Source: Pagrus major (lineage: Eukaryota > Chordata > Actinopteri > Spariformes > Sparidae). From it: a DNA stretch of 64,000 nucleotides. The stretch covers positions 11,480,197-11,544,196 of the forward strand of contig NC_133230.1 in NCBI RefSeq assembly GCF_040436345.1, read 5' to 3'. The notes under the pieces were generated by a model that was not told the DNA's origin, did no database searches, and was given only the letters and a program-made list of their open reading frames with translations. Made by a program: the position numbers and the translations under genes. Each line of letters opens with the position of its first letter. The stretch's first letter is position 1. Below are positions 6,221-63,588 of the stretch, piece by piece.

Positions 6221-7321
6221 TTTCCCAGAAGAGACAAACACAGGGCCAGTTATTGTCCCCTGACACAAGTTAATGTACCGCAGAGGGACACTCAGCTACA
6301 CAAACACACACTCTGTCGCACACACAAGGGAGGATCTGTCCCCTTGTGAAGCCAAACTGGAATGCAAATGCTATTGAAGTTCCTGTTACAGTACCTTGAG
6401 TCAGTCCTTTTCTTCCTTTTATGTGCAAAGAGCTATCAGGGGGAGATAACAGAGAGGCAAAAAACTGAAAATGAAAGAGATTGCGCAAGTTCAGAGTGAA
6501 AAAAAAATTCCCCTTCGGCTGCTGGAGTTTTCTGAAACTCGGTGGTCAAAAGGTTCACAGAGAAGAAAAACTACCTAGTCTTTCATGTAGCAGGCAGAGA
6601 TCGAGGTCAAACATTACTGAGATTCTGACTGTCATACACAAAGATTAATGTCACTTCCAATAAATGACTCTCCTTAAAAATAAAGGCGTGTAAAAAAAGA
6701 AGGAAACAGAAAAATCCTCCGGGTAGAGTTCAGTCTGAATGTTGTTGTAATTCCTCAGCTTGGCTCTGATTCTCTTCAGCTGCTTTCAGAGCGTCTCCTC
6801 AGCTCGTCTTCCTCTCGTTCTCGTTGAACGCCGGTGTCTCTGAACGGTCTTTTCTGTCAGGAAGAAGAGAGCAGGAAGTTAGCACAAAGAGCATGCTCAG
6901 TATGACACACACCTCTCTTCCTCCCTCTGCTCTCTCTCTGTGTCTCTCTCTGCTCTCCTTCAATTCGACCATTAACTCTTCTGACCCTGAACTGATCATC
7001 TCGCTGTGCTAATTACATTTAAATAGACAGATTCATACTCATATAAGTGTGTGTTAATTAACCGTAATCAAACGGTTAAAAATGTCATGAGGAGACACAC
7101 GTCAAACCCGACACTTAAACACGTGACATCATCAACCAGTCGGACCAATCATGTATTCATGTGAAACCAGTGTCTCTCTCTCTCCCTCTTTCTCTCCATC
7201 ACGCTGAGCACCGCAAGCTCTTCCTCCACTTCACACTGCGCTGCTAGTGCCGTTGCCATGGTGATGCTCACTGCGAGCGAGGCAAACAGCGACCCGCTCT
7301 GTGACTCTGGCACTTATGTAT

Positions 7322-27220: not shown

Positions 27221-37646
<10,426 letters not shown>

Positions 37647-37803
37647 GTCTGGACCAGGAGAGCACCGGGACAGAAACTTTATTAAAGTCCGTCTGGGTCG
37701 CTCTGGTGACACTTCAGCCAAGTTGGCCAGGAGAGGAAGCGTCCCCGCCTCCTTTTTGCCATAAGGATTAAGCCCCGCCCTCTACCGGGAAATACGGCGT
37801 TTG

Positions 37804-41500: not shown

Positions 41501-42368
41501 TGACTGATGTTGCTTTTCTTACATGTTTGCATGTATGTTTGCATCTGATGATGATTAAAGAAACAGTGACAGATTAAACCTGTGAGGTATCGTCTCAGCT
41601 GCTCAAACTCTGTAAATATGAACAGTGTTTTGTTGCACTTGACTCAAGTCTTTGCTGTAATCTCTTCATAGCTGATCCATGTCATAAATGTGAAGATGGT
41701 TGGGAGCCGAAAGGAAGTCAGTGCTACTATTTCTCCACTGATGAATCAACCTGGGAACAGGCCAGACACGAATGCAGACGAAGAAGAGGAGATCTGGTGA
41801 AGATAGACAGCGAGGCCGAGCAGGTAGAACACACTGCTGCAGCCTCACTGAGCCGTCTGGCTTTTGTTTTATCACCTTGTGTTTTGCATTAGTTAACATG
41901 ATAAAAGTGGTGTTACATAGATATATTGTATTTTTCATTAACTTTCCCTGTCCAGTCATTCCTGGTGCAGAAAGTGAGCGACAAGATGGTCGAGCATGAG
42001 GACAAGTTCTGGATCGGACTGACAGACTCAGTGAAAGAGGGCACATGGTTGTGGGCAGACGGGACACCACTGAACGAGAGGTTTGACCACTGTAAACATG
42101 TTTTTGGTGTTTACACAATCAAAGTCACAAGTTTCACTGAACCAGTTCTTTCTACTCTCTGTCTCTCAGATTGACATTTTGGAGCGGCAAAGAGCCAGAC
42201 AACTGGACAGAGAAGGATGTGGATGGAGAGGACTGTGCGAGGATGGGAGAAAAAAATGGAACAGACCTGAGGTATTGGTTTGATCAATCCTGCAAAGTAT
42301 CTCAGAAAAGTATTTGTGAGAAATCAGCAGAAACTGGACGCCAGGAGGCCGTCTGTATTTTAGCTTAA
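38449..42368 (+). CDS. Type II C-type lectin receptor with two cytoplasmic ITIM-type motifs (complete, eight exons)
   Basis: Exons are 38,449-38,512, 38,694-38,759, 40,623-40,727, 41,237-41,314, 41,436-41,495, 41,672-41,823, 41,956-42,080 and 42,170-42,368, all GT-AG and in phase, giving 282 residues. The cytoplasmic tail has VVYSDI and STYSEI, both fitting the (S/I/V/L)xYxx(I/V/L) ITIM pattern that recruits SHP phosphatases. Exon 3 encodes a hydrophobic membrane span (VAIVVLSALLAAAVIALGF) with no signal peptide, so the protein is type II. A short Cys-containing stalk follows. The C-type lectin fold runs from CEDGWEPKG to KSICEKS, with WIGL, EPDNW and WFDQSC. The EPD and WFD positions correspond to the Ca/sugar-binding EPN/QPD and WND motifs, so sugar binding is possible but altered. 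Likely an innate immune inhibitory receptor of the CD209/CLEC-like fish group; no exact orthologue assigned. Confidence 0.93.
38527..38592. repeat. (CTAT)n microsatellite in lectin intron 1
   Basis: About 16 perfect tetranucleotide units begin 14 bases after the exon 1 donor, between exons 1 and 2 of the lectin gene. Confidence 0.97.
38990..39300. mobile_element. MITE-like dispersed repeat family B, copy 2
   Basis: It starts AAAGGTGCAATATGTAAGAA and ends in an ATAGCACCTTTCA-type segment. The interior has GAAGTTAGCATGCTAACCAA, ACAGTTAGCAGCAGTTAGCT and ACGACAGGTGGTCAATTCTT, in common with copies 1 and 3. Confidence 0.7.
39920..40112. mobile_element. MITE-like dispersed repeat family B, copy 3 (left end missing)
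   Basis: It shares CTACAGTCAGCAGCAATTAG, TATCGACAGGTGGCCAATTC and the right end TTCTTACATATTGCAC with the other copies. The recognisable left inverted repeat is absent. Confidence 0.6.
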
Positions 42369-43465: not shown

Positions 43466-43471
43466 TTTATT
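43466..43471 (-). terminator. Candidate poly(A) signal of the ZMYM4-like gene
   Basis: TTTATT on the plus strand reads AATAAA on the minus strand, roughly 800 bases after the TGA at 44,265. Confidence 0.4.
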
Positions 43472-44264: not shown

Positions 44265-46146
44265 TCACTCTGACGCCTCCTTATCCAGTATAAATGCTGT
44301 GTCATCTGACGTCTGCTGGTGAACACCTCTTGTATCTTCCTTCTGCACCTCTCGGACGGCGAGGACTCGTACAAGCATGGCCTCCACCGTGCTGTTGTCC
44401 AGAGGGGTGGACGAGAACCACAGAGGGCTGCTGGGAATGCAAGAATGATCCGGGTGAAGGTAGAACAAGTCGGCACGCTGCCTCACCGACTCTGGGCTGG
44501 ATGGAAAGAGAGAAAACAAAGATTGTCAATAAGTTTAGACCGACAGATCCACAGAGAGACGGTCCAGTGTCCAAATGTTTACAGGCATCAAACCCTTAAT
44601 ACAGCAGATAAAGAATTTATAACACGACTCAACCAAAAAATAATAAATAATGAAGCTACAAACCACTTGGAGAGGTAGAACTCGTAGAGTCTGAGTGGAC
44701 AGCGGAGAGGGTTCTCTGTGTTCTCCATCATCTCCACGATGTCTTCTTTACTCTTATTTCTCTTACGCCTCTTCGCTGGGACGCCGTCTGCATCTGACAA
44801 AAACACACAGAAATTCTGTAAGTGAAATACAACACAAACGTACACAAACGTACAGATGTTCACACACTGTAAGAAGACGTTTTTAGATCTTAATTCAATA
44901 TTATTACAGTACAATCACTTCAGTTTGACCCTCAGCCATATCATTACCTGACTCTGCCTCATTAAAGGATTTCGGGGGGTAGAAGCGCAGGAAGCTGGTC
45001 TTGGCGTTGTTCTGGTTGGTTTTGGTGCGGCGCCTGAAGTGGGCGAAGGACAGCTGGCGGTGCTGCTCCACCGTGGTGAAGCGGAAGTACTTGCAGCTGA
45101 AGAAGAGCAGAGTGTTGAGGAGGACGATGGGGGAGTACGCCCCCAACTGTTTACAGTCCCACAGGAACTCCTCCTCCACACGGGAATAGATGAAACCTGC
45201 AGAGGAGAAGAGAGGGACGTATTTAAATCTGGTCAATCTGAGTTGATCCAACGCAGAAAACAAGTCCTGATGACTCACCGCTGGCTGTGACTGAGGGTTT
45301 GAAACCTTTCAGGATCTTGGTGATACCAACGGAGAACTTTTTGAAGATCAGGTCACTGAATATGTTCTCCAGACGACCGTTCTCCAACAGGTGCTACAGA
45401 GAAACAACAACAGTGAGACAAAACAAAAGGAAGTGTGTGATTTTAATCAGTGTTGTCCCAAATAATATAACATCATAATATCCATGAAAAGTCAGAATTT
45501 TGGAATGGGAGAGAAGAAAGTCATAGACAGTGTTGCTCATCTTGCCTGTTGTATGCCGAGACAGAGGTAAAACAGGCTGTCGGGGGAGTACGGCGCTCCG
45601 TCGGGTCGTTTGACCTCAGTGATGAAACAACAGAGGCCGTCACTGAGCTCGGCCGCGGAGCAGTGATGAACATCCTTGCTGAACGTCAAAGAAGGAGCTG
45701 ATAGAAGAGTCAGGAGAAGGATGTGTCAGCCATGTTTCATCTGTTTCAGACAGCAGTGAAACCCTTGTGCCATCTTATTCCTGGTATGTTTAATGAGTTG
45801 ACATTTGGGAATGAGACTGACTTATAATATTTTATTATTTTTCTCTTTATTGGACAGTGAAAAGGCAGAATAAAGGCAAAGGTTGCAGGTATGCGGCATA
45901 CACTTTAAACATTTGGCTACCAGAGCTCCCTATCTGGAATCAAAGGGTAAGACTACTAAATGTTGAATTATAAAAAAAAAAGGAAGAAAGACAGAAAAAC
46001 ATACAAGAAACGAGGTCCAGGTTGGTTTGTGACTTCCTCCACTGTATCCATCTCCTCCAGGCGTCAACTCCACGACGACTCTTCAGTTTGCGGTGCTTCC
46101 TCGACGAGGCCTTAGTTGCCTTGGACGACTGCTGCAGCTTACGACC
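44265..46146 (-). CDS. zmym4-like: ZMYM4-like gene, C-terminal DUF3504 exons (six)
   Basis: Exons are 46,146-46,005, 45,697-45,546, 45,393-45,279, 45,196-44,948, 44,793-44,664 and 44,496-44,265. Recognisable family blocks are GVDAWRRWIQWRK, YLCLGIQQ followed by HLLENGRLENIF, FLWDCKQLGAYSPIVLLNTL, ENTENPLRCPLRLYEFYLSK and VEAMLVRVLAVREV. This is the DUF3504 domain shared by ZMYM2, ZMYM3, ZMYM4 and QRICH1, which has been described as a domesticated Crypton tyrosine recombinase lacking catalytic function. A basic KRRKRNKSK between the last blocks could be a nuclear localisation signal. The intron after 45,546 uses a GC donor (CAG|GCAAGA). Confidence 0.92.
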
Positions 46147-49100
46147 CTTGGAAAGAGTGGAGAGACAAGATTACACCACAGAGAGATAAAACGACAGCTT
46201 CTTAACTCATTCCCCAGGTGGTTGGTTACCTTATTCTTGTTGTGGACTTTCCCCACAGTTTGTTGTAATAGTGGAGGGGCTGTAGCAGAGCTCGGTGAGC
46301 TGCAGGGATCCTCTCTCATCTCCAGAGCAGGAAGAGGAGCTGGAAGAGGAGCTGGAGCAGGAGCTGGAAGAGGAGCTGGAGCAGGAGCTGGAGCAGGAGC
46401 TGGAGCAGGAGCTGGAAGAGGAACTGGAGTTTGGAGCTCAGGATGAGGCTCACTGGGCACGCACACTTGTGGTGTTTTTTTGTGGGTGTCAGAGAATGAG
46501 TCCTCTTGGTCTTTGAAAGCGGTGTGATGATCTGTATGCAGGTCATCACTACAGTTACTCTTGTGCTCTGAAAATAATGATGAAAAGTTGAGGATAAACC
46601 AGTGTTGAGATGGAGATTTTGCATGTTTGCAAGACCAAACAAAAATAATAAATTCAATGTTTTTTGGATAATCTTATGCTTTGATGCGAGGTTTGCTCTG
46701 GTGCTGTGCTTTGTGACAGAATGATTCTGACAATGTTTTATTTTCATCTTTTTCTGTGTACTTTGGTTGAATAAACTTGGTAAATAAAGAGCTGAAACTG
46801 TCTCCTCATTAGGTTACTACGTCTATTTCCTTCCTTCCTCAAATCTAGTTTTAGTTTAACAGCATCATCACTTCACTTCCTTTTCATCAAACGTCTTACC
46901 TTTTGAAGTATGAATTTCTTGTCTTTGTCCCTCTTTGGACACCGCTCTGTCCTTCTGCCCGTCTTCTCTCTCTGGGTTGTTCGTGATCACAGGAAGAAAC
47001 ACAGGAACAGGCAGCTGCAGAGGAGACAGTTTGGGAAAGACTTCAAGGTCTTTTTCAAGCTACTTTTTAACCAAATACAAGATAGATTTTTTGGACAAAT
47101 CATCTTTTTTCTTATTCAGGTAAGGTATAATGATATGCAGTATATGTAATCTCATTCAGAGGTACCTTTATGTAGGAATACGGTTATTAGAGTAACTTTT
47201 ATATCTTTTAAATTATACTGAAGACATTGTAAGATGGACCTGTAGACACCCTGATTTATTGAATCGTTTGATGGCACAGATTGACAGGAACCTAAGGGAG
47301 GGCGGAGAGACTTTGGTACGGGTTACTGGCTGGACTCAAACTGAGGATGTTGCTGTTATGTGTGTTAAATGGCTGGATCACAAGGACGCCTCATGCTGGC
47401 CCCAAACAAGAGGATAATTGGGCAGATTTTGGGTCTGATTCACCCCTCCAAACAATCGCAGGGGTGTTTCTCTATTTGAGGCTGGTCTGAGCGGATTATC
47501 TGCCCAAATGATGCTGTAGTGTGAGGGGTTTATATACATAATGTTAATGTTACGGATCCTTAAATTGAAAGAATGCAGTGTAAAGCCCTGATATTTGATG
47601 TTTGTCTGTGATAAAAGTAAAAAATAAAAAGGTTTGCAAGAGGTCTCAGAAGTGTTTTATGTACCGGTATGGGCAGGCCCACAGGCTTTGGTGTGTACTG
47701 GCTGTACATGTTCATAGGCACAGGAACGAACACTGGCACCGGGATAGGCAGGACTGTTGGTCCAGAGTTGTCTGCATACAACAGACAAAACAAACAAACA
47801 AACCAACATAACATCAAAACTCTCAATTCTGAAAAAACGGTGTGTGTAGATCAATCCTGGAAGTGAAGTTTACCTGTCTGTGCTTCCGTATCGACGGTCT
47901 GTGTTGTACAGGAGACTCCTTTGTTATGAACCAACGGTGTGCAGAGCATGGACTTGTTCTTCAGCTCCTTGGGGACGGTTTGAACACTGGCCTGGCAGCA
48001 GACAATAAAGGCAACATCTTCAACAACAACAACAGCTTCAAACTTCAAAAGGACCACAAATGTTCCGCATATACTGCAGGTTTGCACAGATCATTTTGTT
48101 TTTGGAGAAAACTTACATGTCCAACAACCTTTGTCTGAATGTCCGAGACAGGGACTGTGGACAGATGGCAGAGTTTGAATCAGAAAAACAAACAACTGAA
48201 CCAAAGCATATGAAGCACCAAAATGTCTTATGATTAATAGCATTTCTACAGTGCATACATAAAGTGTGTGTGTCTGAGAATGCACCATGTTGTGCAGAGC
48301 TGGCAGAGGCACTGTGCCGCCTCGACAAAGCGCCAGCAAGCGAGATGACGTTAGCAATGACCGGGGAGGACTCCACTGTGCCCGCAGGTCTAGAGGGTGA
48401 AGAGACTGTCGGTGGGAGACAAAGAGGAGTGAGCAGAGGCTGTAACTCATTTATCTCATAACATTTTATAGATCATATTTAATATTAACTTCAACAGGTA
48501 TCATATCTGTGTGAAATGACTGACCCAAGAAAATGTCAGCATGCAGCAGTCAGGCAATAAAAACACAACTAATTAACTAGAACGTGACCCTGTTGTGTTA
48601 GAGATTATGCCTGTTATAATCCCTGACGCAATCGATTTAGTACTTTAACGTACTTCGGATTACAACTTAGCACCATCAAATATTTACAAAAATTAATGCT
48701 GATGATGTTAAACATTAAATACATCATCTTTAAACTGTTTTCAGTTCAGTAAATGTCTAAAAGAATTACCAAATTACCACTTTCTGTTTCATTTATGTTT
48801 TACACAGTGTCCCAGCTGTTTAGGCTTCTGGTTTATACAACAGTAAAACACACCTGTGTTGACCATCTGGACCTTTTTATTGCAGAAATGCAGGAGACAT
48901 TTCAGGTCACAGAAGTGTTTGACCTCTCCCAGGATGGGAAGACTCTGCCTCAGTTTCCCTTCATGACCACAGGTGTCACACTTGGCAACCTGAGAGAAAG
49001 CAGAGTGTAAAGGTTAGTCTGTTCAGAGCTCTTTGTCACCGTCATCACTAGTATTTTAATGAGGGATTTAACAACTTCCCCATTCTGGTTTGCTTATACA

Positions 49101-52100
49101 TAGGTAGGGCTGCAACTAATTTTTTTTTTTTTTTATTGGTTTATTTTCTGATTACTGTCTAAATTAATTATTTGGTCTACATGATGTAAGAACATTTGGA
49201 AATGCCTATTATAATTTCCCAGAGCCCCTGGGCCACCTGTACTTACATGGCAGAAGAGCATGTTGTAATTTGCGTTGCAGTCTTCAGAGCAGAACTTCTC
49301 TTCAGTGCCTTTATACTGGGCAGTCACCACTGTCTTAGAGATGGAGAAGCAGTAAGCACAAGAGTGACAATACTCCCCCCACTTCTCTTCCAGCTCATGG
49401 TGATAGAGCATCCTGCAGCCTGGGAGGAAAAAAAGGAGAGGATCAGTGATTTACATGATTTTTTTTACCCTGAATTTCACTTGATCAATCTGTCTGTCTA
49501 TCCATTCATCTTCCTCTTACCGTCACTGCAGAAGTAGCAGTCTTTGTTGTCGACCCTCTTGATGTCTCTGATGATCCTTTCATTCTTACAATACTCGCAT
49601 TTACCCATGATGTTGTTGACCCTCTTAAACTCTTCAGAACAGGCCAGGCTACACACAAAATTCATTTTGCCCTGCGCACAAACACACAAATATATTCACA
49701 CCGATGTCAAAGTGTATGTTAACATTTTCTGCGTTAGACTAGTCGATTTACAAATAGTGGTTGAAGAAAGGGGAATCTAAAGATCACATACAGCCCTTCC
49801 AAGCTGATTCACAGACCTGCTTCTTTAAGTGTTATACTGTCACAGAATGACAGCTTTATGCTGCCTAGTCTATCTTAAAACGACAGATCCAACAAACCTT
49901 TTTCTGGACTACTCTGGGTGTAGTTTTTAAAATGCGCCGACACTGAGCACATAGCATTTTCTCTGGTGGTTTGTGGAAATCACACTGGGTTTGGTTGGAG
50001 GCTGTTGGTGGGTTAGTATCAGCATTCTGCGTCTCCTGTGACAAAAAGAGCAAAAAAATGCACAAAGGTCAAACTGACCGATTTGGTATCTAGTATGAAA
50101 GCGTAAACAGACCATCTATGAAAAAGGAACATGTCACTGGCAGCAGTAGTCTCTCTGAGAAGTCCAAACTGACCTGAATATCTTGGAGGTCAACAACTAT
50201 TTTTAATTTTAAAAAATATATATTTTATGACATTTTATAGACCAAACAACTAATTGATTAATCAAGAAAATAATCAGCAGATTGGTGACGACAACGACAA
50301 TCAATATTTGCTGCAGGGTAACGTTCATCCATTAGCTATATTCACTTATCCTTTAAATGGTCGCATGACGAATGGAGCCGATCCCAGCTTATAAATCTAT
50401 TGTTGGTCTTGGTGGCTTGAAGGGCATTGTTGACAATGTGCTTCAATTTAATGGAAGCAGTAGTGATTTGATAAAAACAACAGCATGTTCATCATCTATT
50501 CCCATTCTTTCTCTATAAGTACTTATCCCTTACACCACAAAATCCTTTATTTTGCTTTATCATACCGGGTGATTTCCACAGATGGGTAACATGAAAACAT
50601 GAAACTGAAACCAATTAAAAGAAAGACAATATTCTATACAAACTAGTCTGTCTCTTACTTTCCATTTGTGCCTTTCAGCCACAAGCTCATTGTTTAATTA
50701 TGATGATATATTTTAATTTTAAAGGTTGGTGATTTCCAGCAGAGCACTGTGGTTTCTGGCAAATGTTACTCAACCTGGAGTTCTTCTACTATTCAGCTAC
50801 TTCTTACACTACTCCTGGTTCCTTAATCAAAGAAATAAGAGTTTTGAACACTATATAATCTGTAGGTTGTATTACCTTGAAAGTCATGGCACAGGTTAGA
50901 GTGCAGAAGTTTCTGATGGAGGCGTCTGACATGGCGAGGTGGCAGGCTGGTACTGTGGTCTTACCACAGTGGTCACAATCCAATGGAAGACCTGTAGAGA
51001 AAAAGAGATTGACAAATGAATGAGGAAATTACTAATATCACACGTACTGTGTGTAAAACTGCATCAACTTTAGTCTCAAAGGTGCATTACCTAAAATGAG
51101 CTGGAACCTTTATTATAGACAGAGAGAGAAAAATAATTACAGTCTAGTACCTGACGCACTGACAGCCTGGATCTTGGACGCCATCACACAACTGGTGGTA
51201 CAGAAAAGCTCCACCTCGTTCTCACTGTTTTTGTTTTCAACCATGTCTGTCATTAAACGAGGGGTGCAGCACATGGCACACGGCTGCTGTGTTTGGATTT
51301 TCTGCAGAGTAATAAAACAGTACAGAGAGAATATTAAGCCCAGGCATGGATATTATATCACCAGACCAGAAGTAGTGCACAACATAATAACAATGATTTT
51401 TTACAAAGATAAAGGACTTTTTTTTCTTTTTGTTATATTCTCACAGTATTTTTTTTATTTTGTTATTTTATCTTACTTTATCACAGCCTTTTACTTAAAC
51501 AAATCTGTTTCATTACCATACAAAGGGTTAAAAAAAACTTGACTAAACATTGTTTCCAGCCTTTAAAACAATTTCCGTATTTTTGCGAAAAGATCTTTTT
51601 TTAATTAATCTTTGACATTAGACAGATATTTTAAGATTTCTTTACCTTTCTGAATTGTGCCAGACACTCTACACTGCAGAGTTTTCTGCTGCCATCTTTC
51701 ATCTTGAGCACCACAGGTGTGTTGCAGTGGGAGCAACAGTTCACACAAACAGACAGGTTGTTCATGTTGCAGAAGCGCAGAAAACAGGGGTCACTGCAGA
51801 GCTCGTGGGCGACGCCCTGCTGTGTGATCTCATGTCTGCTCTGCAAGAAGTTAAACAAAAGACAGTTTGTGGTTCATTATTCATATAAACCTGGGGGCTC
51901 ATTGTAGAAACTTCCCAGAATCATGTTTCCTAACCACATGTATTATTACAATAAAGAAAAACTTATGATTTAATCTTTTTAAATGTGTTCCCTTGTCTCT
52001 TACAATGCAATATCTGCTGCACATGCTGCATTGTGACTGCGATGCGACTGGCTTGATGGGTATTTTGGCAGACATTATTCTCTTGTAGGTGAACGAAGAC

Positions 52101-55100
52101 AGGCAGGCCTGGCTGCAGAAATCCTTCATCGTCTCCTCAGTATCCACTGGGGCCTGGAGGACATCCTGAGGATTTGTTATCGCCCTGAGAGAACGAGGAG
52201 GGATGAGATCAGCTCAATGAAAAAAATATGTACATTCAGCCGAAATTCATTTAAAATTCATTGAATTAAATGACTGTATGACTCACTGAAGGCAGAAGTG
52301 GCAGGTCTTCTTAGCTTGTTTCATTTGGTAAAATTTCAAAAGGCAGGGAGATGAGCAGAAGATATCTGGGTGACTCTTCCTCTGATAAACGGTCTCTCCG
52401 TCCACCAGTGCATTTTTGCAGTTGGAGCAAGACGCAGGCAAATCCATTTTGGTCTCAGTGGACACTGTGGATGTGTCTTGTTCCGTGAAAGAGAAGACTG
52501 AACCAATCTTCAAGTCCTCCTGTCAAAACCAGAACCAGTGTGTTGATGCAGTCAGGGGACTTTGATGTACAGTTACAGCATTTAGATATGTCCACTATTG
52601 TGTGTCTGCTCCTGTTTTACTCATCAATATCAGTGACGACAACATCATCTACCATCCTATGAGCTGTATCATGTGTCCTACCTTTGCCACTTTAGGCTCG
52701 TCCTTGATGTCCTCTGCTGATATGGAGAATGAGAGATATTGTTTGTACTCTTCATCAATGGGCTCTTCTTTTATCTTGAGGAGTGAACAGTGACCGAGTT
52801 AGTTGTATAACATTTACAACGGAGAAGTCTGTGCAGATCATTGTGATCATTTACTTTCTAATATGCACACACTACTACTCACCTTGAGAAAAATAATCTT
52901 CTAGTGATATTACTTCTCAGCCAGTAAATCGGTCACATTGTTATACAGAAATGTGGTTTCACGTCAGACCTTGAATCTGTGTATTACAATTATTGCACAT
53001 AATACTCACAAAGCCCAGATTTGGTAGTGATGGCTTCACTTCTTTAATGTCTTCTTCACTCAGTGGTGGGCTGTTCCTTTCTATAAAGATGTGGTAAAAA
53101 TTAGTCAACTTCTGATTTGAAGAGAATGTTTTTCTTTAGTATCCAGACAGTATCCAGTCTAGAGTATATGGGATAAACTATCTATGCATGAAAATTATGA
53201 CTGAGCAAGGTAAGCAGCCAAATGCAACCAATTCTCTCTTTTGATTGTAAACTGCTGTCAAAGCTCAAACGTTATTCTATATTTCAGTTAAAAGTACCTG
53301 AGCGATATAAAATATAAAGTAGTGGAGAGAGAGAAAGTGGTAGAGGAGGGAAGAGATATGATTGTAGTACCTGAAACAGTGAAAGACTGAGCCTTGTGCA
53401 CCATCATACATCTGTTGCTACAGAAGAAGTCCAAACTGCCCTCGTCATTTCTATTTTCAATCATGTCCGACATCTGATGGGACGTTTGGCACATGGGGCA
53501 CAGCTGAGGGGTCTCAATCTTCTGTAAAGTCATAAAAAAAGAAAAGAAGGATGATGTGCAATTTAATATTCAAACATCTTAAAAATACCAGCACGTATCT
53601 CAAGACTGCTGATTGCATTTTTTTTTTTAAATCAAAACATCTTTAATGACAAAGTGATCCAGAATGGAAAAAAGGGAGTAAATAATCATTGCTCTATTTA
53701 TAATATAACTGAATATATCAATAAATAATACCATTAAACCACCACATAAAAAGCTACCTTAAACCACCAATCATGATAGTTGAACTATGAAGTTTATTTA
53801 TTTTCTGTTCTATTACTAGCTCATTTGATTTATTTTGCTCCTTGGTTTTCCAAATTCTTGCTTGAACATATTTAATTCTTAATTTATTTCTTATTGTCTC
53901 AAGAAACAAACATTTTCCTCACGTTAATATGATCATGAGATGAGTGCACGATAGGACACAGTTATAAAACCATGAACTGTGTAAAATGCAAGTAAATAAA
54001 CAATTACGTGATATTTGATTAGCTGATGCTGCCTATTTCTAACTTAGTAATATGCAGGGTATTTAATGTTTCATAATAATGTGTTAGTTTCTTCAGTGTT
54101 AATTTGGAAGTTATGCCAACTGCAGCTCCTTAACGTTTTCTGTCCTGGACGAAAGACGTAACCATGAACAAAACGTCTGATTTCCACACCTCTTTGACCT
54201 TGACCAGACATTCTTCACTGCAGATGGTTTTACTGCCGTCCTCCCTCTTCAGCATGAGAGGTTTGTTGATAAAGACGGAGCTGCAGATGTCACAGGTGAA
54301 CACAGGGAGGTTGTTGACTTTGTAGTAGTTGATGAAGCAGGCGTCGCTGCACATTCTAAGCATTAAGCCATCCAGGCTCTGCCTGACTTTGCACTGAGGA
54401 AGAGGACAAAAGAGGATGTGCATGTTACTGCAGGCTAATCTTTGTAAACAGAGAAAACATTATGTAATTTTCATATGTGTCCTTAATGTCATATATTTAA
54501 AATCATTGTGCATTGAAATAAAGGTTTAAAATAAAAGTTTAAAGCATTTATTTTCCTTACAAAGGCAAGTCTGGCGCACATGCTACACTTAGCAGTGTTC
54601 CTCTTGGAGTTGACAGAGGTGAGGCAAGTGTTGCTGCACAATTCCCTTATAGTTCCTGAATCATCCACCGGAGCCAGGATCATGTTGTGAGGTCGCATTA
54701 TCACCCTGAGGGAGAGAGATCAAGATGTGATTCTGTTCTGACAAAGACCTTGTTTTTTAAAAGAATAGGTTTGCCTGCAATACCTCAGCCTCCTAAATCT
54801 AAGCTAGTGTGTGCTAGCTGATCACCAGGGATGAGCAAGTAAACCATTATCTGTAAGTGTATCCATAATCGGACAGTGCAGGATTTCAACCAGAAGTGTG
54901 TGGGACAAACTGGAAGTTATTAATTTAAGCCTGAAATTGATATGGGATGACCAGAAGTTGATATATTTAGTATTTATCAGAAAACTATATACAGAAAAAC
55001 CTCAGATCAAAGTTATTGACCACAAGAGTAAGAAAACTATTAAAAGAAAAAGCATTTTATAAATTTGAATGATCAAACTTCAGTCAGCTCCCCAATGAGG

Positions 55101-58100
55101 ATTTCCTTCATCAAGAGTACGAACAGTCACACATTTTACTCAGATCAAACTCGTAACTACGTGATCTGTAACAGATACTCATTTCCTCCCAGTACTTGCT
55201 CAATCCTACTACTCACAGTACTGGTTTTGGACTTACTGAAGGCAGTTGTAGCAACTTTTGGCACCTAATTTGTTGTTGGGATGCCTTTTAGAGAGGCAAG
55301 AGGCTGAGCAATAAACCTCTGGTGAGCTCTTCGTCTGGTAAAGCGTCTGTCCTTTTGGCAGTTCTTTTCCACAGAGGCAACAAACAACGGATGAGTCTGC
55401 AATGATGATTGTTGGTGTGTCCCATTCAGCAGCTGGAGATGCAACATTTCTGTTTACAGTGGAGTCCTCCTGTGGGACAATTACAGTACAGTGGTTAGAA
55501 GCTGTCCCTGGACTGACATGTAAACCTGCTTAAATAGGACTGAATCAGACAAACTTTCGTCGGCTTTTCTGCTGAATGTATTGAAATATACTCACAGTAG
55601 TCAATTTTTCTTTCAGTTGTATGTTTCTCTTCCTCTTTTTTAACCAAGCTGAGCATTCCTTGCCTGAAAGGACAAAACAGAAACATGGAAGATAAAGTAA
55701 CTGTTACCATTGCAACTTTAAGTTGACTTTAAAATATAGTATAATAGTTTTTAACCACTGTGCAGTGTTTGAGAGTCTGATAAGCCTTAAAATCCACGGA
55801 TGTATGGCTCAATCTGTACCCGTATCATCCCAAATAAAAAAGTCCCAGGTGTCTTTTAATGCTGTGTTATCGTTGATCTTGATGCCTGCTAAAGAGGCCA
55901 AAGACAGTGAAAAGAGGAGGACGTGTATCAAGAAAAAAAACCTTATTCTTATAACTTATAACTTATTCTCTTACCGTGAAGCTTGTATTCTATTGCGAGT
56001 CTGTATGACGTCACACAGGCGCGAGTGCAGAACAGCTCCACCATGTTCTCACTGTTTTTGGAATGAACCATGTCTGACAACGGTAGAGAAAGGTGGCATG
56101 TGGTGCACCGGTAGGGCGTCTTGTTATTCTGCATATCAATAGAAAAAGAAAGGCAGAAAAAGTAATTATTTTATTCACAAAAATGTAAAAGAATTGAGTT
56201 TATTCTTTCAGGATTAGACTGTTGGTAATGCTTTTGCTTATTTTTAACACGGATGGATGAGGCTATAGTTAGTTTTGATATTTCTGCACCTCCATGAACT
56301 CATCCAGACACGTGCCACTGCAGATGGTTTTGGTCTCCTCCTCCAGCTTCACCATTAGTGGTTTTTTGGTGCAGGTGGTGCTGCAGTTCTCACAGATGTC
56401 CGTGTTGTCCCTACGGAAATCGTCAAAGCAGGAGCCGCTGCAAAACTTGTGGACAACCTCATACAGTGTGAACTCACATGTTGTCTGCAGAGGATAATGA
56501 TAAAAGCTCAGTGAGTACAACAAAGACTTTACAGTTAAAATCAGCAGTTTTGTTGACAATGATTTCAAGTTGGAGGAAAAATTGTTTTTGCTTACAGTGC
56601 AGGATTTGGAGCACATGCTGCAGACTGATGGTGGCGTTTGGCTGGATTCAGGTTCGGACTTAAAAGAGCACAGACAGGTCACACTGCAGAAGTCCTTCAT
56701 AGTTCCCTTAGTGTCCACTGCAGCCATGATGAGGTCCTGTGGCTGCGATATCGTCCTGACAGAACAAGCAGGTGAGATGATAAACAGTTTGTTACAATAT
56801 CAGCTTTTGATGTGGTGAATAAACTTTGACACAAAGATAATGTTTATGGATATGATGAAATAATCAGGATGTTTTTCACAGACTCACTTTTTACAGTAAT
56901 GGCAGGTCTTGGTTGCTGGTTTGTTGATGGGAAACATTTCAAACAGGCAGTTTTTGGAGCAGAAGACATCTGTGAATCCTTTCTTCTGGAACGCCGTTTG
57001 ACCCTTCATCATGCTTTTCTTACAGCGCGAGCAGGTCATCTGAACTGTCTGATATGCAATAGAAATAAAGAACAAGTAATATTTGATTTAAACTAAACTG
57101 TGTAAATTCTGTGGTTATTATGTTCGTTTTTTTTATTTTGGCACATAAATAATTGAAGATGGAGTATTCTTGGAGGCTGAATAACTAAGAATAATAAATA
57201 TTTAAAGTACTTAAATATGTGAGAAATATGAAATTGCAGATAAATCTTTTATCGTTTTTCTGCAGTGTGCAGAAGAAATAATGCAACAATCGACCAGCTC
57301 ATACCAGCTCTCAATGAAAAACACGTAATCTTTCAGATTTGAGATGGTACGTACTCACAAAATGACTTCATAGTGATTCAATTTTAAATTATCTTTCACA
57401 GTTACAGTGACTAAATACTCGTATAATGCTATGTCCACCTCATGAACAGTCTATCATTTCAACTTAGAAGTGTGTGCCCCTACCTTTGCATCGCTCGGCT
57501 TCGTCTTGTCGTCTGTTGTTGGACTCTGGTTGTTTGCATCATGCACAGTCTGATCTTTCAGTGGTTGCTTGACAGAATTACACGCAGATGATAACCTGGA
57601 AATGTGGGCTGGATCCAGCAACTTCGCCTGGAACACGACAAACAATGTTTGTTCAGCAAATGATTAATTTCATGTTAAAATGGAAAATCAAGTTTTGTTG
57701 AGACTTTTTATATTAATGGTCACATCAGCCATTACACCACAGAAGAGTATACTATACTATCAAGTATTGAAAAATGTCTTGTCGTTTGATACCAAATTTC
57801 AGAACAATAGGAGTTAATCTCATCAGCATCATTGAGCTAATAAGCATGCAGCCTGCTTGTCTCAGACATGGAGGGAAAACGTTGTGTGTAATGTAATTAA
57901 TCCTTTGTTAAAACAGATTTCATAAAATTGGTATTCAACAAAGTATCGTTCAGGAAATGGTATCAAAGTCAAGGTATCGGTATCGTAAATTTCTTAACAA
58001 TACCCAGCCCTATCTATAAAGAAGGTTTTAATTCATACTTTGAACCAGTTTTTATTATAATATGAAAAAGTGGAGAGAAATTAGATACTCACAATGTCCA

Positions 58101-61100
58101 GTTTTGGGATCAATATCTTCACCTCTTTCATGCCAGCCATTGCAGCTAGTAATTTGTTCTTTTCTATAAATAATAAAATCAAATATGGGTGTAAAACAAA
58201 GTTCTTATTATACTTCTAAAATTCAATTAATATACTAATGGGTGGATTGCTATGGAAGTTTGTGCAGATTTTAATGATCCACAGAGGTTGAAGTCTACCG
58301 ACTTCCACTCTAACACCATCAAGATGTAAACACTTTTGTTTTTGAGTGAAATATCTCAACAACTATTGGATGGATTGCCATGAACGTTACTTCAGACGCT
58401 CAAGATCCCATGAGGAGAAAATTCTAATGACTTTGGTGATACTGAAATAGCTTAATATCTATTGGATTGGAGCATACTTTTGTATAGACATTCATGGATG
58501 TGTCCTATTGATTTTTTGAGACACCAAAATGATTTTACCTGTATTTAAAGTGGCAGAGGAACTTCTGCTCCAGCTATTTTGTTCCGCTCCTTTCTTCGGA
58601 TCATCTTTCTCCACATGGTTAGCTGCATCTATGTCCATGCTCTCTACCAGGTCTGCAACAGTGCTGTGATTCTCAGGTGAGCTGTCGGTCTTCTTCGCAC
58701 CACTGCTGTCTTTGTCCTGCTTGGTCTTATCTAGTACATCTGAGTCATTTGTGTCGCCATCTCCAACATTTTCCTCATTTCTGATGTCCTCATCAGTGTC
58801 AAAGTCCATGTCAAAGTCTACATTCATGTCCTCATCGTCATCACTGAAGGACATCTTTGTTGCATTCGCATTGCTACGAGACAATGTTTTCTCAGGCTTT
58901 TCCTCTGACCGGTCAGTCTTCTCAGTGCTCACATCCTTCAGCTCAGATGCCGCATTTTCCCTCTCCTGCTTCCTGGGCCTGCCTCTGCCACGCTTCTTCA
59001 AGGGACCACTGGAAATGGGACTGGAAAAAAATCTCGAACATTTGCTGGGTTCTTTAGTTGTTGAAAGGGACCCTTTTGAGGAGGAGAGACCTGACAGAGA
59101 CAAAGAGCTGCAGCTATTTTCACTCTCCTGCTTCCTGGGCCTGCCTCGGCCGCGTTTCTTCAGAGAACAACCGGAGATGGGACTGGGAGAGTATCTGGAA
59201 CATTTGCTGGGTTTTTCAGTTGTCGAAAAGGAGTCAAAGACCATGTCAAAGTCTACATTCATGTCCTCATCGTCATCACTGAAAGACATGTTGGTTGCAT
59301 TATCATTGCTATGAGACAATGTTTTCTCAGGTGTGTTCACATCATAGCTCTCAGGCGTTTCCTCTGGCCAGTCAGTCTTCTCAGTGCTCACATCCTTGAA
59401 CTCAGATGCCGCATTTTCACTCTCCTGCTTCCTGGGCCTGCCTCTGCCACGCTTCTTCAGAGAACCGGAAAAGGGAATGGGAAAATATTTGGAGCTTTTG
59501 CTGTTTTTTTTAGTTGTTGAACAGGAGGCTATTGAGGAGGAAAGACCTGGAGGAGACACAGAGGTACAGCTATGTGAGAAGATGATCTACAACTTTCTCC
59601 TTCACTCCTTATTTGATTTACATTCAACCAGAGAAGTCAAACATTTCCTCTCTATTCGTTTTATAGGGTTTCTTTTATCTGAGTCACCTGACTCCAATAA
59701 TTTTCTAGCTTCCTAACCGACTCTTATTACGGTTTTACAGCAGCTCTGACCAGGACTGTGACTCCTGCACCCTTAAAAGAATACAAAATACAGCTCACTG
59801 GATATTTGGAGTCTGTGCATTACATACCGCTCGGCTGTAAAGAACTTTCTGATTCTTCATTGTCGTCCCCAGCATCACAGTTGTCCTTCTCAACATCAGA
59901 TTTGTCCTCCTCAGCATCACAGTTGTCCTTCTCAACATCAGATTTGTCCTCCTCAGCATCACAGTTGTCGTTTTCGACATCAGATTCATCCTTTTCAGCG
60001 TCACATTTCTCAGGAATGTCCTGCTCCAGTTCATCTTCAAAGGAAAGCAAGATATGTATACATCTGTAGTACCAACATTATTGGGTGATAGGATTTCAAC
60101 TAATAACCAGAATTAACAAAAAAAAAATCAAAGTTCCTTGTAGTAGCTTTAAAAGAAAACTCCACAGAGCACCTTTAAGTACTGAACTGGACACATACCT
60201 GCAATCTCAATTTCCTCGAGAGATTTTCCTTCAAATCTTTCAAGACATCCACTCTCCATTGCTGACAGTAGCTCTGAGATTTTTGCAATGATGACTGCGG
60301 CCTCAGGCGTCTGATAATAGTCCCTGTCGGTCTGGATGTCACGGCCCAGCAGTTTGGCTAGCTGATCAAGCTCTTCATTTGTGAGGCTGAGAATCTGGAA
60401 AAATCTTGCAACGTGCTTACGAAAACACACAGACCTGAGGTCCACTTGGTTCTTTGCACCACACCGAGCTACAAACGTCTTGAAGCACAGGTGTCCTTGG
60501 TAGAAGCTCATCCACGTGGCACTAGGTTTTGCAAACAGGAAGAGATTGTTTGGATGTACACCACATGCGTCTCTCTTGCTCACAAGCAGTGTTAAAGCAT
60601 CGAGCAGTTTGGTGGTCAATGTAACGGCAACTTTTTTGCCCTTGTTGTTCCTGACATTGATCTTCACAGAGTGCTTGGAGAGAATCTGATCTAACTGTGA
60701 CTGGCAAACAGCAGCGTCCTCACGAGGCTCAGTCTTGTCCCTCTCATTGAATGACTTTAGTGTTACTTTTGAAACTTCCATCATGTTTTTGTTCAAGACT
60801 GACACTTGAGCAACTGTCACTCTGAGAAGTGCATTGTAGACTGGAGGACATTCGTACAATGTCAGACTCTCAATTCCAGATGCTGCCGTCTCTTCCAAGC
60901 ACTGAAAGAGAAGCTGCACATCATGAATGAACGGGATGGTTGGTGTGTTGTTCGCTGTTTTTGATTGGGGGACATAGGCCCATTCTTTATCACACAACTT
61001 CATAAATGTCTCCACTTCATTCATCTTCTGTTTATCGGCATCCTCTTTCAAAGCCCTGGCAAAGTTAATGCCGGCAATTTTCTTAAGTAAATATCCCAAA

Positions 61101-63588
61101 TGCATCCAGACACTTGGTTTGTCACTGGTCTTCGTTTCTTCATTGAAACCAGCAACTTCTCTGGCCGCTTCGACAACTTTGCTGAAGTTTTGAGGTTTGA
61201 CAGCATCCTCAACGCTATTTATTGACTTTTCTCTTAATTTCAACAGGAGTCTTCCCATTAGCCTCAGCCTATGTGTAAAGCTGCCATGTCTATTTTTACC
61301 TTTATTCATGTGGTAAAAACACTGTGCGAGCTGCAGTATATGGGGATCATTCAAAACTACAGATGCAACCTCATCATTCTTCAGTTTCTCTAATAACTTC
61401 TTCACATCTGATGAGATCTCCTTGGGGTCTGTTGACAGTGCAGCATCAACCAAACTTAAGATTTTCCTCTGGCCAGGGGTTTGATATTTTGAGGACCTCT
61501 TTGCCGCACACCTTCGCGAATGTCGCCACATGTCCTTACGACTACGCATGACTTTACAATATAGACAGAGAGCAAATGCTTTTGCATCGGTTCGCTTGTC
61601 TGGTCTTTTTCTGTTCACTTTCAGTTTTCCACGGCAAGTCCTCAAAACCTCTTCATTATGTTGGAAATTTCCTCTGTTTCGTAACTCATTCAATATCATA
61701 GCTCTGTCCTTGGAGTCTACCGGCAGGCCAAACACTGCAGCTATTTCAGGCTCTTCATTTCTATGGGTGAAAAGGTGACGAGGAAGTTTCAATACACCTT
61801 TCCCGCAAATGTAACAATAATTCTTGCTGCGGGTAGCACCTTCAGGCTCATCATCAGAGGTAAAACTGTCAGGGTTGTATTTAGCCTCGTCCTCCACCTG
61901 CTGGATGCCTGAAGCTTTGGTGGGTTGTTGCACAAGGCGCTGCTGTTTAGAAGAATCTGGATCTGGACCGTTCTTGAATTTGGGACTCTTCCGGTTGTTG
62001 TTGCTGGTGAAACTGTCATCGCTACTTGGTTCATCATCAGGTACGTAGTCGTCATCAAAGCATGATTCATCAGAACTGGTGGCTCCTGCCGAGTCCTCAA
62101 CCTGGAATTATGAACACGTAATTTTATTTAACACAAAACAAAAACAAAACAACAAGAATCTCATATTTGTCAGTCTGTAGAATCTACTATGTTCTGTTTT
62201 AGCTCCTGTCTATTTATGGACCGCTTCCTGAAGACCCAGTCTGCTCTGATTGGTCAGCTCACACACGCCTGAGCAAACTCTGCTTTAAGTGAATTATGAC
62301 CATTATTTTCCCATTTTATACATTGTAAAGAAAAAAAAATGGCTGTATAAACAATCTAGAGAATAATCGCAAGTTGTAACCTGAAAAATAATTTGAAAGA
62401 ATATATCTTAAAAATTCAAAACATTTGCTGTAGACGGCAGTGACATCATAAGGAGTACACATCTTACATAACATCCATGCTTAACTCTTCAACCACACAT
62501 CTACATGGTGCTTAATAAGGGAGATACATTCAACACTTACACGTTCATCCTCTGATGAAGATGCAGCAGCACTTAGGTCCATCTGTGATGTTTTCAGGTC
62601 CTCACTGGATTTCTGTAGATAGAAGAGGACGGAAAAGTCATGATGAAATGACCCAGTTGTACACGTATACAATCTAAACAATTTAAATCCAATACATTAC
62701 ATCTGTGTCAGTACTTCTTTTATACATCGTACTATGACAAAACTTATAATGGGTAGTTATTTTTGATAACATGTCCAATTAAATGAATTAATGAATTTTT
62801 AAATATTTTTTAGAGGGTAGCAGATGAGTCACAACTCTTGTAGACATATCTGCAATAGATATCAACAGATATACTTTAATTATTTATGACATAATGGACA
62901 AAAACAAGGCACATAGCAGAAAATACACCAACCGTTGACCGCCATGGGTAGGAGGAGTCCCCGTAGTTATAAGTTATCTCCTCGCCTTGAGTTATTTCCT
63001 TCACTGCAAACAGGCACAAGTGTGGCTTTCCCTCGTAAACAACTTTCTTCATTTTGCAGTTGGGACTTATGTCATCGTCGTTCACAAGTCTTCCGAGGGA
63101 CCCATCTTCTTCTGAAGCATCAATGCTGCAAGAAAAAAACATAGTCTTCATGAAACTTCAACCACTTTTTAGATTACTATTTTATCACACTGACTGATGG
63201 TAGCAACAGAGTGTTGAATATTTAGCAATTTTATCAATCAAGGCACCTTTTGTATCTGATACAATTCATTTAACATTTTCTAAATTCACACTCATGAAGG
63301 AGAAACATCACAAGAAACCTATGCAGCATGAATAGAGGAGGGTGTAGTGGTGAAAGTGAGTTTGATCTTTTCTCTTAAACATAAGCCAATATAGAAAATT
63401 TAAAAACAACAAATATTCAAAGTAAACTCACCGCCAGTTTGTTCCATTCCACGAGAAGTCAAACATATAATTGTTCAGAGCATCACCACAATTCTTTGTT
63501 CTGATTTCTTTTTGAGAGATGATTTTCCCACGATACTCGACAACGAAGGCGGACGGTTTGATTGCTTCATGGGTGAAGACACCTCTCC
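44265..63588 (-). CDS. Giant ZMYM4-like gene: SET + recombinase-like + AT-hooks + about 20 MYM fingers + DUF3504 (5' end outside window)
   Basis: Forty coding exons join on the minus strand without a stop. At every junction I can place splice sites that keep phase, giving at least 2,895 codons ending at TGA 44,265. Domains in order are SET (63,588-62,933), two short zinc-finger-like motifs plus a tyrosine-recombinase-like domain (62,101-60,199), acidic repeat (60,034-59,828), three AT-hooks (59,546-58,539), three MYM cassettes (58,163-51,151), distal MYM fingers (50,991-48,854), linker (48,375-46,230) and DUF3504 (46,146-44,265). Human ZMYM4, a nuclear MYM-finger protein of the ZMYM2/3/4 group, has 1,548 residues. 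From exon 52,774 onward the order matches ZMYM4 (IKEEP, IKDEP, SVFSF, finger order, PVPVFVPVP, DUF3504). The fusion to SET and recombinase parts is deduced from phase alone; two adjacent genes remain possible. The sub-parts are described separately. Confidence 0.8.
46230..48375 (-). CDS. zmym4-like: ZMYM4-like gene, linker exons with Pro-rich and Pro-Ala segments (six)
   Basis: Exons are 48,375-48,286, 48,154-48,117, 47,991-47,874, 47,771-47,665, 47,014-46,900 and 46,567-46,230. The peptide SSPVIANVISLAGAL, then TKVVGHASVQTV, then TVLPIPVPVFVPVPMNMYSQ corresponds to the conserved region between fingers and DUF3504 in ZMYM2/4. The last exon holds a Pro-Ala/Pro-Leu run of about 40 residues encoded by hexanucleotide units at about 46,330-46,430. 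The first exon's acceptor (GGCACAG|TGGAG, 48,375) is weak; a better-looking upstream site would shift the frame, so I followed the conserved frame. Confidence 0.82.
46330..46430. repeat. Coding hexanucleotide repeat (Pro-Ala codons)
   Basis: On the plus strand GGAGCT/GGAGCA units with GGAAGA variants are repeated about 16 times. On the coding minus strand they read CCAGCT/CCTGCT (Pro-Ala) with CCTCTT (Pro-Leu). Length polymorphism in units of two residues is expected. Confidence 0.9.
48854..50991 (-). CDS. zmym4-like: ZMYM4-like gene, distal MYM fingers (five exons)
   Basis: Exons are 50,991-50,876, 50,035-49,898, 49,671-49,521, 49,419-49,247 and 48,989-48,854. They encode fingers equivalent to the later MYM fingers of ZMYM2/4. 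Finger one is CDHCGKT...CHLAMSDASIRNFC. Others are CAQCRRILKTT continuing into FVCSLACSEEFKRVNN, CEYCKNERI with FCSDG, YCHSCAYC...KFCSEDCNANY, and CDTCGHEG...HFCDLKC. Each is a CxxC...FCS/CxxxC treble-clef type zinc site. These fingers occur once, unlike the upstream cassette. MYM fingers mostly mediate protein contacts and SUMO-linked interactions in nuclear corepressor complexes. Confidence 0.9.
49105..49190 (+). repeat. Dispersed repeat family A fragment in the ZMYM4-like gene
   Basis: It begins GTAGGGCTGCAACTAATTTT, the usual terminal sequence of this family, followed by a T-run and TTATTTTCTGATTACTGTC. A further fragment lies in the intron at about 50,200-50,300 (CCAAACAACTAATTGATTAA). 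Confidence 0.55.
51151..53080 (-). CDS. zmym4-like: ZMYM4-like gene, MYM cassette 3 with SUMO-type motifs (six exons)
   Basis: Exons are 53,080-53,010, 52,774-52,682, 52,519-52,287, 52,184-52,004, 51,840-51,646 and 51,301-51,151. The second exon reads IKEEPIDEEY and AEDIKDEPKVAK, two psi-Lys-x-Glu SUMO consensus motifs, followed by the segment KIGSVFSF. Both are present at the equivalent place in human ZMYM4, so this cassette is the likely ancestral one. Fingers follow: CSNCKNALVDGETVYQRK...FCSSPC, CHFC...DFCSQAC, CSMCSRYC...ELCSDPC, CVNCCSHC...KLCSVEC and CAMCCTPR...LFCTTSC. Confidence 0.9.
53371..55663 (-). CDS. zmym4-like: ZMYM4-like gene, MYM cassette 2 (five exons)
   Basis: Exons are 55,663-55,596, 55,469-55,237, 54,705-54,561, 54,393-54,190 and 53,521-53,371. 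The order is a 68-base linker exon, then CCLCGKELPKGQTLYQTK...YCSASC, CYNC...ELCSNTC, CSMCAR...RMCSDACF, CDICSSVF...TICSEEC and CPMCQTSHQ...FFCSNRC. Exon phases (1-0, 0-2, 2-0, 0-0, 0-1) repeat those of cassettes 1 and 3. The SUMO-type exon is missing. The fourth exon leaves through a weak donor, GAG|GTGTGG. Confidence 0.87.
55975..58163 (-). CDS. zmym4-like: ZMYM4-like gene, MYM cassette 1 (six exons)
   Basis: Exons are 58,163-58,093, 57,627-57,484, 57,048-56,888, 56,755-56,596, 56,484-56,290 and 56,128-55,975. A linker exon (AGMKEVKILIPKLDI) and a low-complexity exon precede the fingers CSRCKKSMMKGQTAFQKK...FCSKNC, CHYCKK...DFCSVTC, CSMCSKSC...KFCSGSC, CENCSTTC...TICSGTC and CTTCHLSL...LFCTRAC. 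The finger order and intron phases mirror cassettes 2 and 3. The fifth exon leaves through a weak donor, GAG|GTGCAG; reading on meets a stop within six codons, so splicing there is needed. Confidence 0.87.
58539..59546 (-). CDS. Triple AT-hook exon of the fusion gene
   Basis: A single 1,008-base exon starts and ends in phase 1. It contains three copies of KKRGRGRPRKQE, a canonical AT-hook core (GRPRK) that binds the minor groove of AT-rich DNA, at about 59,422-59,460, 59,126-59,163 and 58,962-59,001. Each AT-hook follows a Ser-rich segment (TTKxxSKxSR..SPIS). An acidic NATxMSFSDDDEDMNVDFDM block occurs twice. The exon therefore grew by internal duplication. Its acceptor was chosen because the earlier AG at the CACATAG site would lead to a stop. 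Confidence 0.88.
59828..60034 (-). CDS. Acidic repeat exon of the fusion gene
   Basis: A 207-base exon in phase 1-1. After DELEQDIPEKC it contains 3.5 tandem copies of a 14-residue unit, DAEEDKSDVEKDNC and variants, encoded by 42-base repeats on the minus strand. The peptide is highly acidic and disordered-looking. It joins the recombinase-like exon to the AT-hook exon. Confidence 0.82.
60199..62101 (-). CDS. Large exon: two zinc-finger-like motifs and a degenerate tyrosine-recombinase-like domain
   Basis: A single 1,903-base exon (phase 0 to 1) encodes 634 residues. An acidic start is followed by CYICGKGVLKLPRHLFTH at about residue 96-113 (CxxC...HxxxH) and CLYCKVMRSRKDMWRHSRRC (CxxC...HxxxC). 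A long helical region leads to a C-terminal block: FRKHVARFFQ, then LTNEELDQLAKLLGRDIQTD and RDYYQTPEAA. The order R..H.A followed by LG(H) and a tyrosine is the signature of tyrosine recombinases of Crypton-like elements. Here LGH is LGR, and the Arg-rich box I is replaced by LNKNMMEV, so catalysis is probably lost. The long uninterrupted exon among tiny exons fits an element-derived origin. The recombinase assignment is by motif only. Confidence 0.72.
62541..63588 (-). CDS. KMT5A-like SET domain exons and short linker exon
   Basis: Exons are 63,588-63,432, 63,125-62,933 and 62,612-62,541. Translation gives GRGVFTHEAIKPSAFVVEY then RGKIISQKEI, NNYMFDFSW, a GSLGRLVNDDD segment with SPNC, KPHLCLFAVKEITQGEEI and TYNYGDSSYPW. 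This is the core of a SET lysine methyltransferase domain closest to KMT5A (SETD8): GxG, the EY.G strand, the (R)LVN...PNC motif and the Y.YGD end. The His of the usual NH(S/C) motif is Asp here. The pre-SET start lies beyond the window. The last exon (KSSEDLKTSQMDLS...) links in phase 0 to the large exon at 62,101. The donor at 62,933 (ACG|GTTGGT) is only moderate. Confidence 0.85.

Follow-up and report, generated by a model that had tools for sequence, protein, structure and literature searches.

A predicted percomorph gene that joins SET and recombinase-like domains to a ZMYM4-type protein, seen in Pagrus major

Results

The locus and its gene model

The window, by which we mean the whole 64,000-nt stretch of Pagrus major DNA that was analysed, carries on its minus strand a gene model that runs from 63,588 to 44,265. 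An earlier sequence-only reading had proposed that 40 exons could be joined here in consistent phase and without a stop. Our exon build bears this out and gives a predicted protein of 2,905 aa; the junctions named earlier (62,101/60,199, 60,034/59,828, 59,546/58,539 and 58,163) are those located in the build. An alternative chain of 41 exons encodes 2,928 aa with a terminal stop only, and its additional exon (55,888-55,820) was dropped for want of a counterpart in the nearest orthologue, P0046. The introns of the 41-exon chain are GT-AG in 39 of 40 cases and GC-AG in one (after exon 37). Several donors are weak, including those after exons 2, 11, 17 and 30. The weak donors GTGCAG and GTGTGG, at 56290 and 54190 (minus strand), lie behind the third exon of MYM module 1 and behind its counterpart in module 2. 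The features of the locus are listed below.

63432..63588, minus strand: first SET-domain exon in the window; it is similar to the full gene's second SET, with an upstream exon outside the window; KMT5A is the nearest solved structure
62933..63125, minus strand: second SET-domain exon (exon build, Pfam)
62541..62612, minus strand: linker exon from the SET domain to the recombinase-like exon (exon build; similar stretch in P0046 by eye)
60199..62101, minus strand: single large exon with zinc-finger-like motifs and a tyrosine-recombinase-like domain with degenerate catalytic residues
59828..60034, minus strand: exon 5, acidic repeat (42-base tandem repeat), closing the SET-recombinase half
58539..59546, minus strand: exon 6, internally repetitive, with three AT-hooks and, in its 3' part, a weak resemblance to ordinary ZMYM4 (N-terminal region)
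59426..59457 (approximate, by eye), minus strand: AT-hook 1
59128..59160 (approximate, by eye), minus strand: AT-hook 2
58967..58998 (approximate, by eye), minus strand: AT-hook 3
57484..58163, minus strand: exons 7 and 8 (58163-58093 and 57627-57484), linker into the MYM part
55975..57048, minus strand: MYM module 1, four exons (exon build, Pfam)
53371..55663, minus strand: MYM module 2 and its linker exon, five exons (exon build, Pfam)
52682..53080, minus strand: linker exons 19 and 20, with an IKEEP motif
51151..52519, minus strand: MYM module 3, counterpart of the first MYM block in ordinary ZMYM4
48854..50991, minus strand: MYM block 4
46005..48405, minus strand: ZMYM4-type proline-rich linker exons
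44265..45697, minus strand: QRICH1 and DUF3504 domains, with the stop codon at the end
43466..43471, minus strand: candidate poly(A) signal AATAAA, about 790 bases past the stop

Exons 7 and 19 have 71 bases each and are similar in look. The SET domain of the window is closer to the second SET of Siniperca P0047 (84%) than to the first (74%), and therefore the gene probably runs on upstream past base 64,000, the window starting inside a second SET-recombinase unit and holding only the 3' part. Three open stretches in the rest of the window are taken to be RNF19B-like (5555-6295, minus strand), adenylate-kinase-2-like (37497-37781, minus strand) and C-type-lectin-like (41578-41892, plus strand).

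Domain content of the predicted protein

The SET region matches its Pfam family at 5.6e-17 (62.5 bits against a cut-off of 22.4), and KMT5A (SET8), to which it had been likened earlier, is the closest solved structure (9.4e-15). Of the KMT5A catalytic and cofactor residues Y245, Y271, R295, N298, H299, Y334, Y336 and D338, the window keeps all except H299, which is D, leaving the full set incomplete. The window SET differs from KMT5A by this altered NHS motif and by its fusion into a giant protein. The fetched proteins gave 112 SET segments with a length of 95 aa or more, isoforms and stand-alone relatives included, of which 67 are first and 36 second in the chain. The R295 equivalent is kept in 67/67 first and 36/36 second segments, and the N298 equivalent in 66/67 and 36/36. 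The H of the NHS motif has become D in 63/67 first and 32/36 second segments, and an H two residues further on, absent from the window, is found in 55/67 and 32/36. Because D replaces the NHS histidine in most segments, methyltransferase activity of these SET domains appears doubtful. A comparison of seven sequences with NCBIfam gave one match, between the SET region of the stand-alone protein P0034 and a bacterial SET-bearing effector family, at 30.1 bits and thus far below the cut-off of 550.

For the recombinase-like part proposed earlier, homology to tyrosine recombinases has weak support. The recombinase-like exon of the window has no Pfam match, and among the 41 aligned sequences a single one, P0038, reaches PF00589 at 0.0013 (19.0 bits, below the cut-off of 27.1). 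Profile comparison with Escherichia coli XerD, FimB and FimE was not significant for either group (E 0.062 and 0.22), a search of solved structures with the recombinase-like alignment gave nothing meaningful up to E 10, and no recombinase family of PHROGs or NCBIfam was matched by the seven sequences. At the positions of the tyrosine-recombinase motif (R-H-R-H/W-Y) the first R is replaced in the window, GH has become GR and the Y is kept, so that the complete set is absent. The NRR-type motif of the first arginine is kept in 14 of the 41 aligned sequences and lost in 27, including the window. Going by these motif positions, the recombinase-like domain has lost expected catalytic residues.

For the MYM and C-terminal parts, Pfam reports zf-FCS, TRASH_ZMYM4 (64.5 bits), QRICH1 (PF25561, 3.9e-31) and DUF3504 (PF12012, 7.2e-64); the last is described in a passage of PMC3212892 as a Crypton-derived recombinase domain without most of the catalytic residues. 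The proposed number of about 20 MYM fingers is a fair reading of the 23 hydrophobic-C-x3-C motifs that we counted, but Pfam passes fewer stretches and not all of the motifs are finger signatures. Three MYM modules have many residues in common when taken in pairs (75/217, 89/220 and 96/238) and their phase-1 ends match; on these grounds, the related modules of the predicted protein are an internal triplication. As for the AT-hooks, they are present in exon 6 of the window (Pfam 4.3e-07, with two stretches passing and the third hook found by eye), but they do not define the protein. Of the 92 proteins retrieved with the model (see below), 6 have a GRP[RK] motif anywhere and 5 have it in the exon-6 region, and the AT-hooks were rejected as a core module. 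Some other orthologues have an RGRGR-like basic patch, as judged by eye.

Recurrence in other fishes

A protein search with the joined model, suggested earlier as a way to see if the same order recurs, did find it in many predicted proteins of percomorphs. The search scored the 8,000 candidates sharing most words, with lengths 0.55-1.75 times that of the model and clustered at 90% identity. It returned 92 matches from 82 species (species read from names); several isoforms per species are present in places, and the counts describe this search list rather than all fishes. The best match, a predicted protein of 3,518 aa from Acanthopagrus latus, covers 97% of the model at 79% identity. SET, recombinase-like, MYM and DUF3504 parts follow one another in this order in 49 of the 92 proteins (46 species), four of which carry submitters' locus tags instead of RefSeq LOC names (P0073, P0090, P0092 and P0093). 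The recombinase-like part is joined to the MYM part in 66 of the 92 proteins and 63 of the 82 species, 17 of the 66 lacking SET or DUF3504. The SET-recombinase unit occurs twice in a row in 36 proteins (34 species), 32 of them within the 66 joined proteins, the others being P0120, P0123, P0127 and P0134. Among the 26 proteins without this joining are ordinary ZMYM4 (for example P0124, P0125 and P0128-P0132) and split models (Anabas P0117 and P0120, Anableps P0123, Micropterus P0098), together with P0102, in which SET is joined to MYM and DUF3504 and the recombinase-like piece lies below the score cut-off. Medaka (P0094), fugu (P0074) and killifish (P0088) have predicted orthologues, and the junction search added two further joined predictions (P0139 and P0140). 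The seadragon Phyllopteryx has proteins of more than 4,000 aa (P0127, P0133 and P0134), each with five SET-type stretches and recombinase-like copies, and without the MYM part; these SET-recombinase arrays likewise belong to the 26.

The layout had been thought to be unknown from any described protein. This is so in that a literature search of open-licence papers gave no description of the fusion among the matches listed, and the passages concerned of a zebrafish SET survey (PMC2200798) do not mention it. The proteins are already in databases, but only under names such as uncharacterized, hypothetical or ZMYM4-like.

The boundary between exons 5 and 6

By eye, 17 of 20 proteins are alike in the stretch that leaves the last recombinase-like domain, crosses exon 5 and enters exon 6. 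The 86 residues of window exon 6 upstream of the first methionine have matches in 50 of the 66 joined proteins at 1e-3 when the search is unfiltered, and in 32 of the 66 when low complexity is filtered out and composition is corrected for. With a fragment that straddles exons 5 and 6, the numbers are 63/66 unfiltered and 23/66 with the low-complexity filter. The filtered counts deserve more trust, this region being acidic and repetitive. In the unfiltered search, the matches of 52 of the 66 joined proteins extend 15 residues or more to either side of the boundary itself.

On one side of the boundary, the C-terminal tail common to P0028, P0035 and P0036 recurs elsewhere among the fetched proteins only in P0135 and P0122, and it gave one chance-level match in the window (E 0.42). 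On the other side, residues 1-190 of eight ordinary ZMYM4 proteins matched nothing in the window at E up to 1; these residues often match each other between ordinary ZMYM4 proteins. When compared with the 66 joined proteins at 1e-2, they matched only Caranx P0116 (E 0.002-0.003), between its MYM pieces. Several fused proteins have, in their exon 6-7 region, matches to residues of about 265-476 of ordinary ZMYM4 (up to three matches being listed per protein), and exon 6 of the window matches these later N-terminal residues weakly (E 0.035 and 0.11). Such a pattern would be expected of a fusion near exon 5/6 in which the end of one gene and the start of the other were lost; since the paralogue has diverged, an absent match counts for less than one that is present. 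Because the ordinary start region is not matched, we filed the gene as a putative ZMYM4-derived fusion and not as an ordinary ZMYM4. Among its 15 matches, the junction search gave no spliced transcript across the two halves; those from raw contigs are confined to the recombinase-like exon or exon 6 with intron read-through.

Position of the probable fused genes among ZMYM4 proteins

Trees were built from DUF3504 (27 sequences) and from MYM modules 3-4 (28 sequences); both are unrooted, have long branches and comprise sequences other than ZMYM2 and ZMYM3. In both unrooted trees the window groups with Acanthopagrus at a support of 1.000, and the fused genes are split from the rest at 0.999 and 1.000. 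The nearest neighbours of the fused group in these unrooted trees, built without ZMYM2 and ZMYM3, are percomorph ZMYM4 proteins, and beyond these, as seen from the fused group, lie Polymixia, Lampris, Astyanax and Synaphobranchus (0.935 and 0.970, again unrooted). Thalassophryne, a batrachoidiform percomorph, has the fused form with a partial SET (P0109), and Lampris, which lies outside Percomorphaceae, has in the search list only forms without the SET or recombinase-like part. In Mugil (P0112 and P0126) and Halichoeres (P0091 and P0128) the longest contig has an identical length for the fused-type and the ordinary copy, suggesting that both are present on one chromosome. A duplication of ZMYM4 of percomorph age, followed by the fusion, would be the simplest reading.

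Discussion

A probable single gene with a composite origin

We consider it likely that the window holds the 3' part of a single percomorph gene, about 3,500 codons long, that is a ZMYM4 duplicate with one or two SET-recombinase-like units as its N-terminus and whose product would work as a chromatin co-repressor scaffold. The one-gene part of this proposal is drawn from sequence comparison: the exons are in phase, the order and the boundary sequence recur, there is no clear separate end or start, and three MYM modules are related. A chance fit of the phases was considered and is thought unlikely, since the order and the boundary sequence recur in other species.

A single gene is compatible with several products. 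One transcription unit with alternative ends could give SET-recombinase-only, MYM-only and full-length forms, which we regard as a serious possibility without expecting it. It would fit the Perca isoforms, which have two or one SET-recombinase units (P0049 and P0070), and the ATTAAA at 58,275 or the AATAAA at 58,056 could end a short form. In pikeperch, LOC116047099 (46,954 nt, 48 exons) is differentially spliced in brain RNA-seq and is called a putative lncRNA in a passage of PMC11788885. This gene is our orthologue P0048, for which the database lists a protein of 3,641 aa. Against alternative ends, neither starts nor ends of transcripts were seen, and no 400-base window between about 57,600 and 63,400 has a CpG observed/expected ratio above 0.65.

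It seems improbable that two adjacent genes, a SET-recombinase gene and a ZMYM4 copy, were joined by annotation because their phases fit, with occasional read-through at most. In favour of two genes, the phase of a single junction fits by chance one time in three, and most full-length entries bear RefSeq LOC names and so presumably come from one shared pipeline. Moreover, some annotations end after the SET-recombinase part (Anabas P0120, Anableps P0123) and the start of others lies at the MYM part or close to it (Micropterus P0098, Dicentrarchus P0100 and Collichthys P0105 among them), and in Takifugu P0141 an adenylate-kinase start is joined to the MYM part, an apparent mis-merge that is probably an annotation error. 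Errors in the prediction of domain architectures have been warned of (PMC3927609). However, two separate genes would leave the recurrence of the pre-methionine stretch of exon 6 and of the exon 5/6 sequence in most joined orthologues to be accounted for, as well as the joining of the parts in 66 of the 92 proteins, and neither a clear C-terminal tail on one side nor an ordinary ZMYM4 start on the other is seen. The minus strand is free of AATAAA starts from 61,222 to 58,057. Finally, we give still less credence to the fused gene being real with its SET and recombinase-like parts as inactive passengers, kept only through being in frame: the expected recombinase catalytic positions are lost, the NHS motif is altered and donors are weak, but the frame is open over 40 exons and recurs in many percomorph species, and the R295 and N298 equivalents are kept almost throughout the first and second SET segments.

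A possible function in chromatin

We come back to the probable single fused gene and to what its protein might do if it is such a co-repressor scaffold. By analogy with ZMYM2, LSD1-CoREST-HDAC and SUMO-bearing partners may be held by its MYM fingers and DUF3504 part. The recombinase-like domains, without the expected catalytic residues, could serve as DNA- or protein-binding parts, and the SET domains, in which most KMT5A-type residues are kept, could either add a methyl mark or only bind. The likeliest target would be the chromatin of repeats or transposons, again by analogy. ZMYM2 (ZNF198) is described as stabilising LSD1-CoREST-HDAC1 via its MYM fingers, with binding to HDAC1-SUMO (PMC2532748), and as controlling the transcription of retrotransposons (PMC10629813).

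A bolder proposal, which we put forward tentatively and hold to be rather unlikely as a whole, is that of a percomorph chromatin regulator of about 3,500 residues that represses mobile elements, with two SET and two recombinase-like domains placed on a ZMYM4 scaffold that has a second, independently domesticated recombinase (DUF3504). According to this proposal, copies of ZMYM4 would have captured the recombinase-like family more than once, at the N-terminus in percomorphs and in the interior in Astyanax. The fusion across many percomorphs would be a large natural experiment, in which histone-methyltransferase-like and dead recombinase-like domains are combined with a co-repressor scaffold.

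Relation to known systems

The ZMYM4/WOC family, with its Crypton-derived DUF3504, has the MYM block, linker, QRICH1 and DUF3504 in the same order as the fused gene; the fused gene differs by its two extra MYM modules and its SET and recombinase-like N-terminus, and has no match to the ordinary residues 1-190. The stand-alone SET-recombinase-like proteins of fishes (about 1,000 aa; P0034, P0035 and P0036) have the order SET, zinc-finger-like and recombinase-like, as in the window, but are devoid of the MYM part, and two of them (P0035 and P0036) have the C-terminal tail. P0036 has in addition a C1-like finger, below the Pfam cut-off. Whereas the stand-alone proteins keep an RR-x-x-GEVSKM-type motif, the window and P0046 have NK-x-x-x-EVSK.

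SETMAR, with a SET of a type different from that of the window, is a further case for comparison. In SETMAR, SET is joined to a mariner transposase, so that a methyltransferase domain is likewise linked to a transposon-derived one (PMC8704517). The gene of the window, in contrast, has a recombinase-like part and not a transposase, belongs to another host lineage and is far larger. In Astyanax, the ZMYM4-type protein si:ch211-266o15.1 (P0135) has members of the window's recombinase-like family, both complete and partial copies, together with the tail. These copies are not N-terminal: the proline-rich linker precedes them and QRICH1/DUF3504 follows. Pfam detects no SET in this protein. Labrus P0122 has one recombinase-like copy, with the tail, at its C-terminus.
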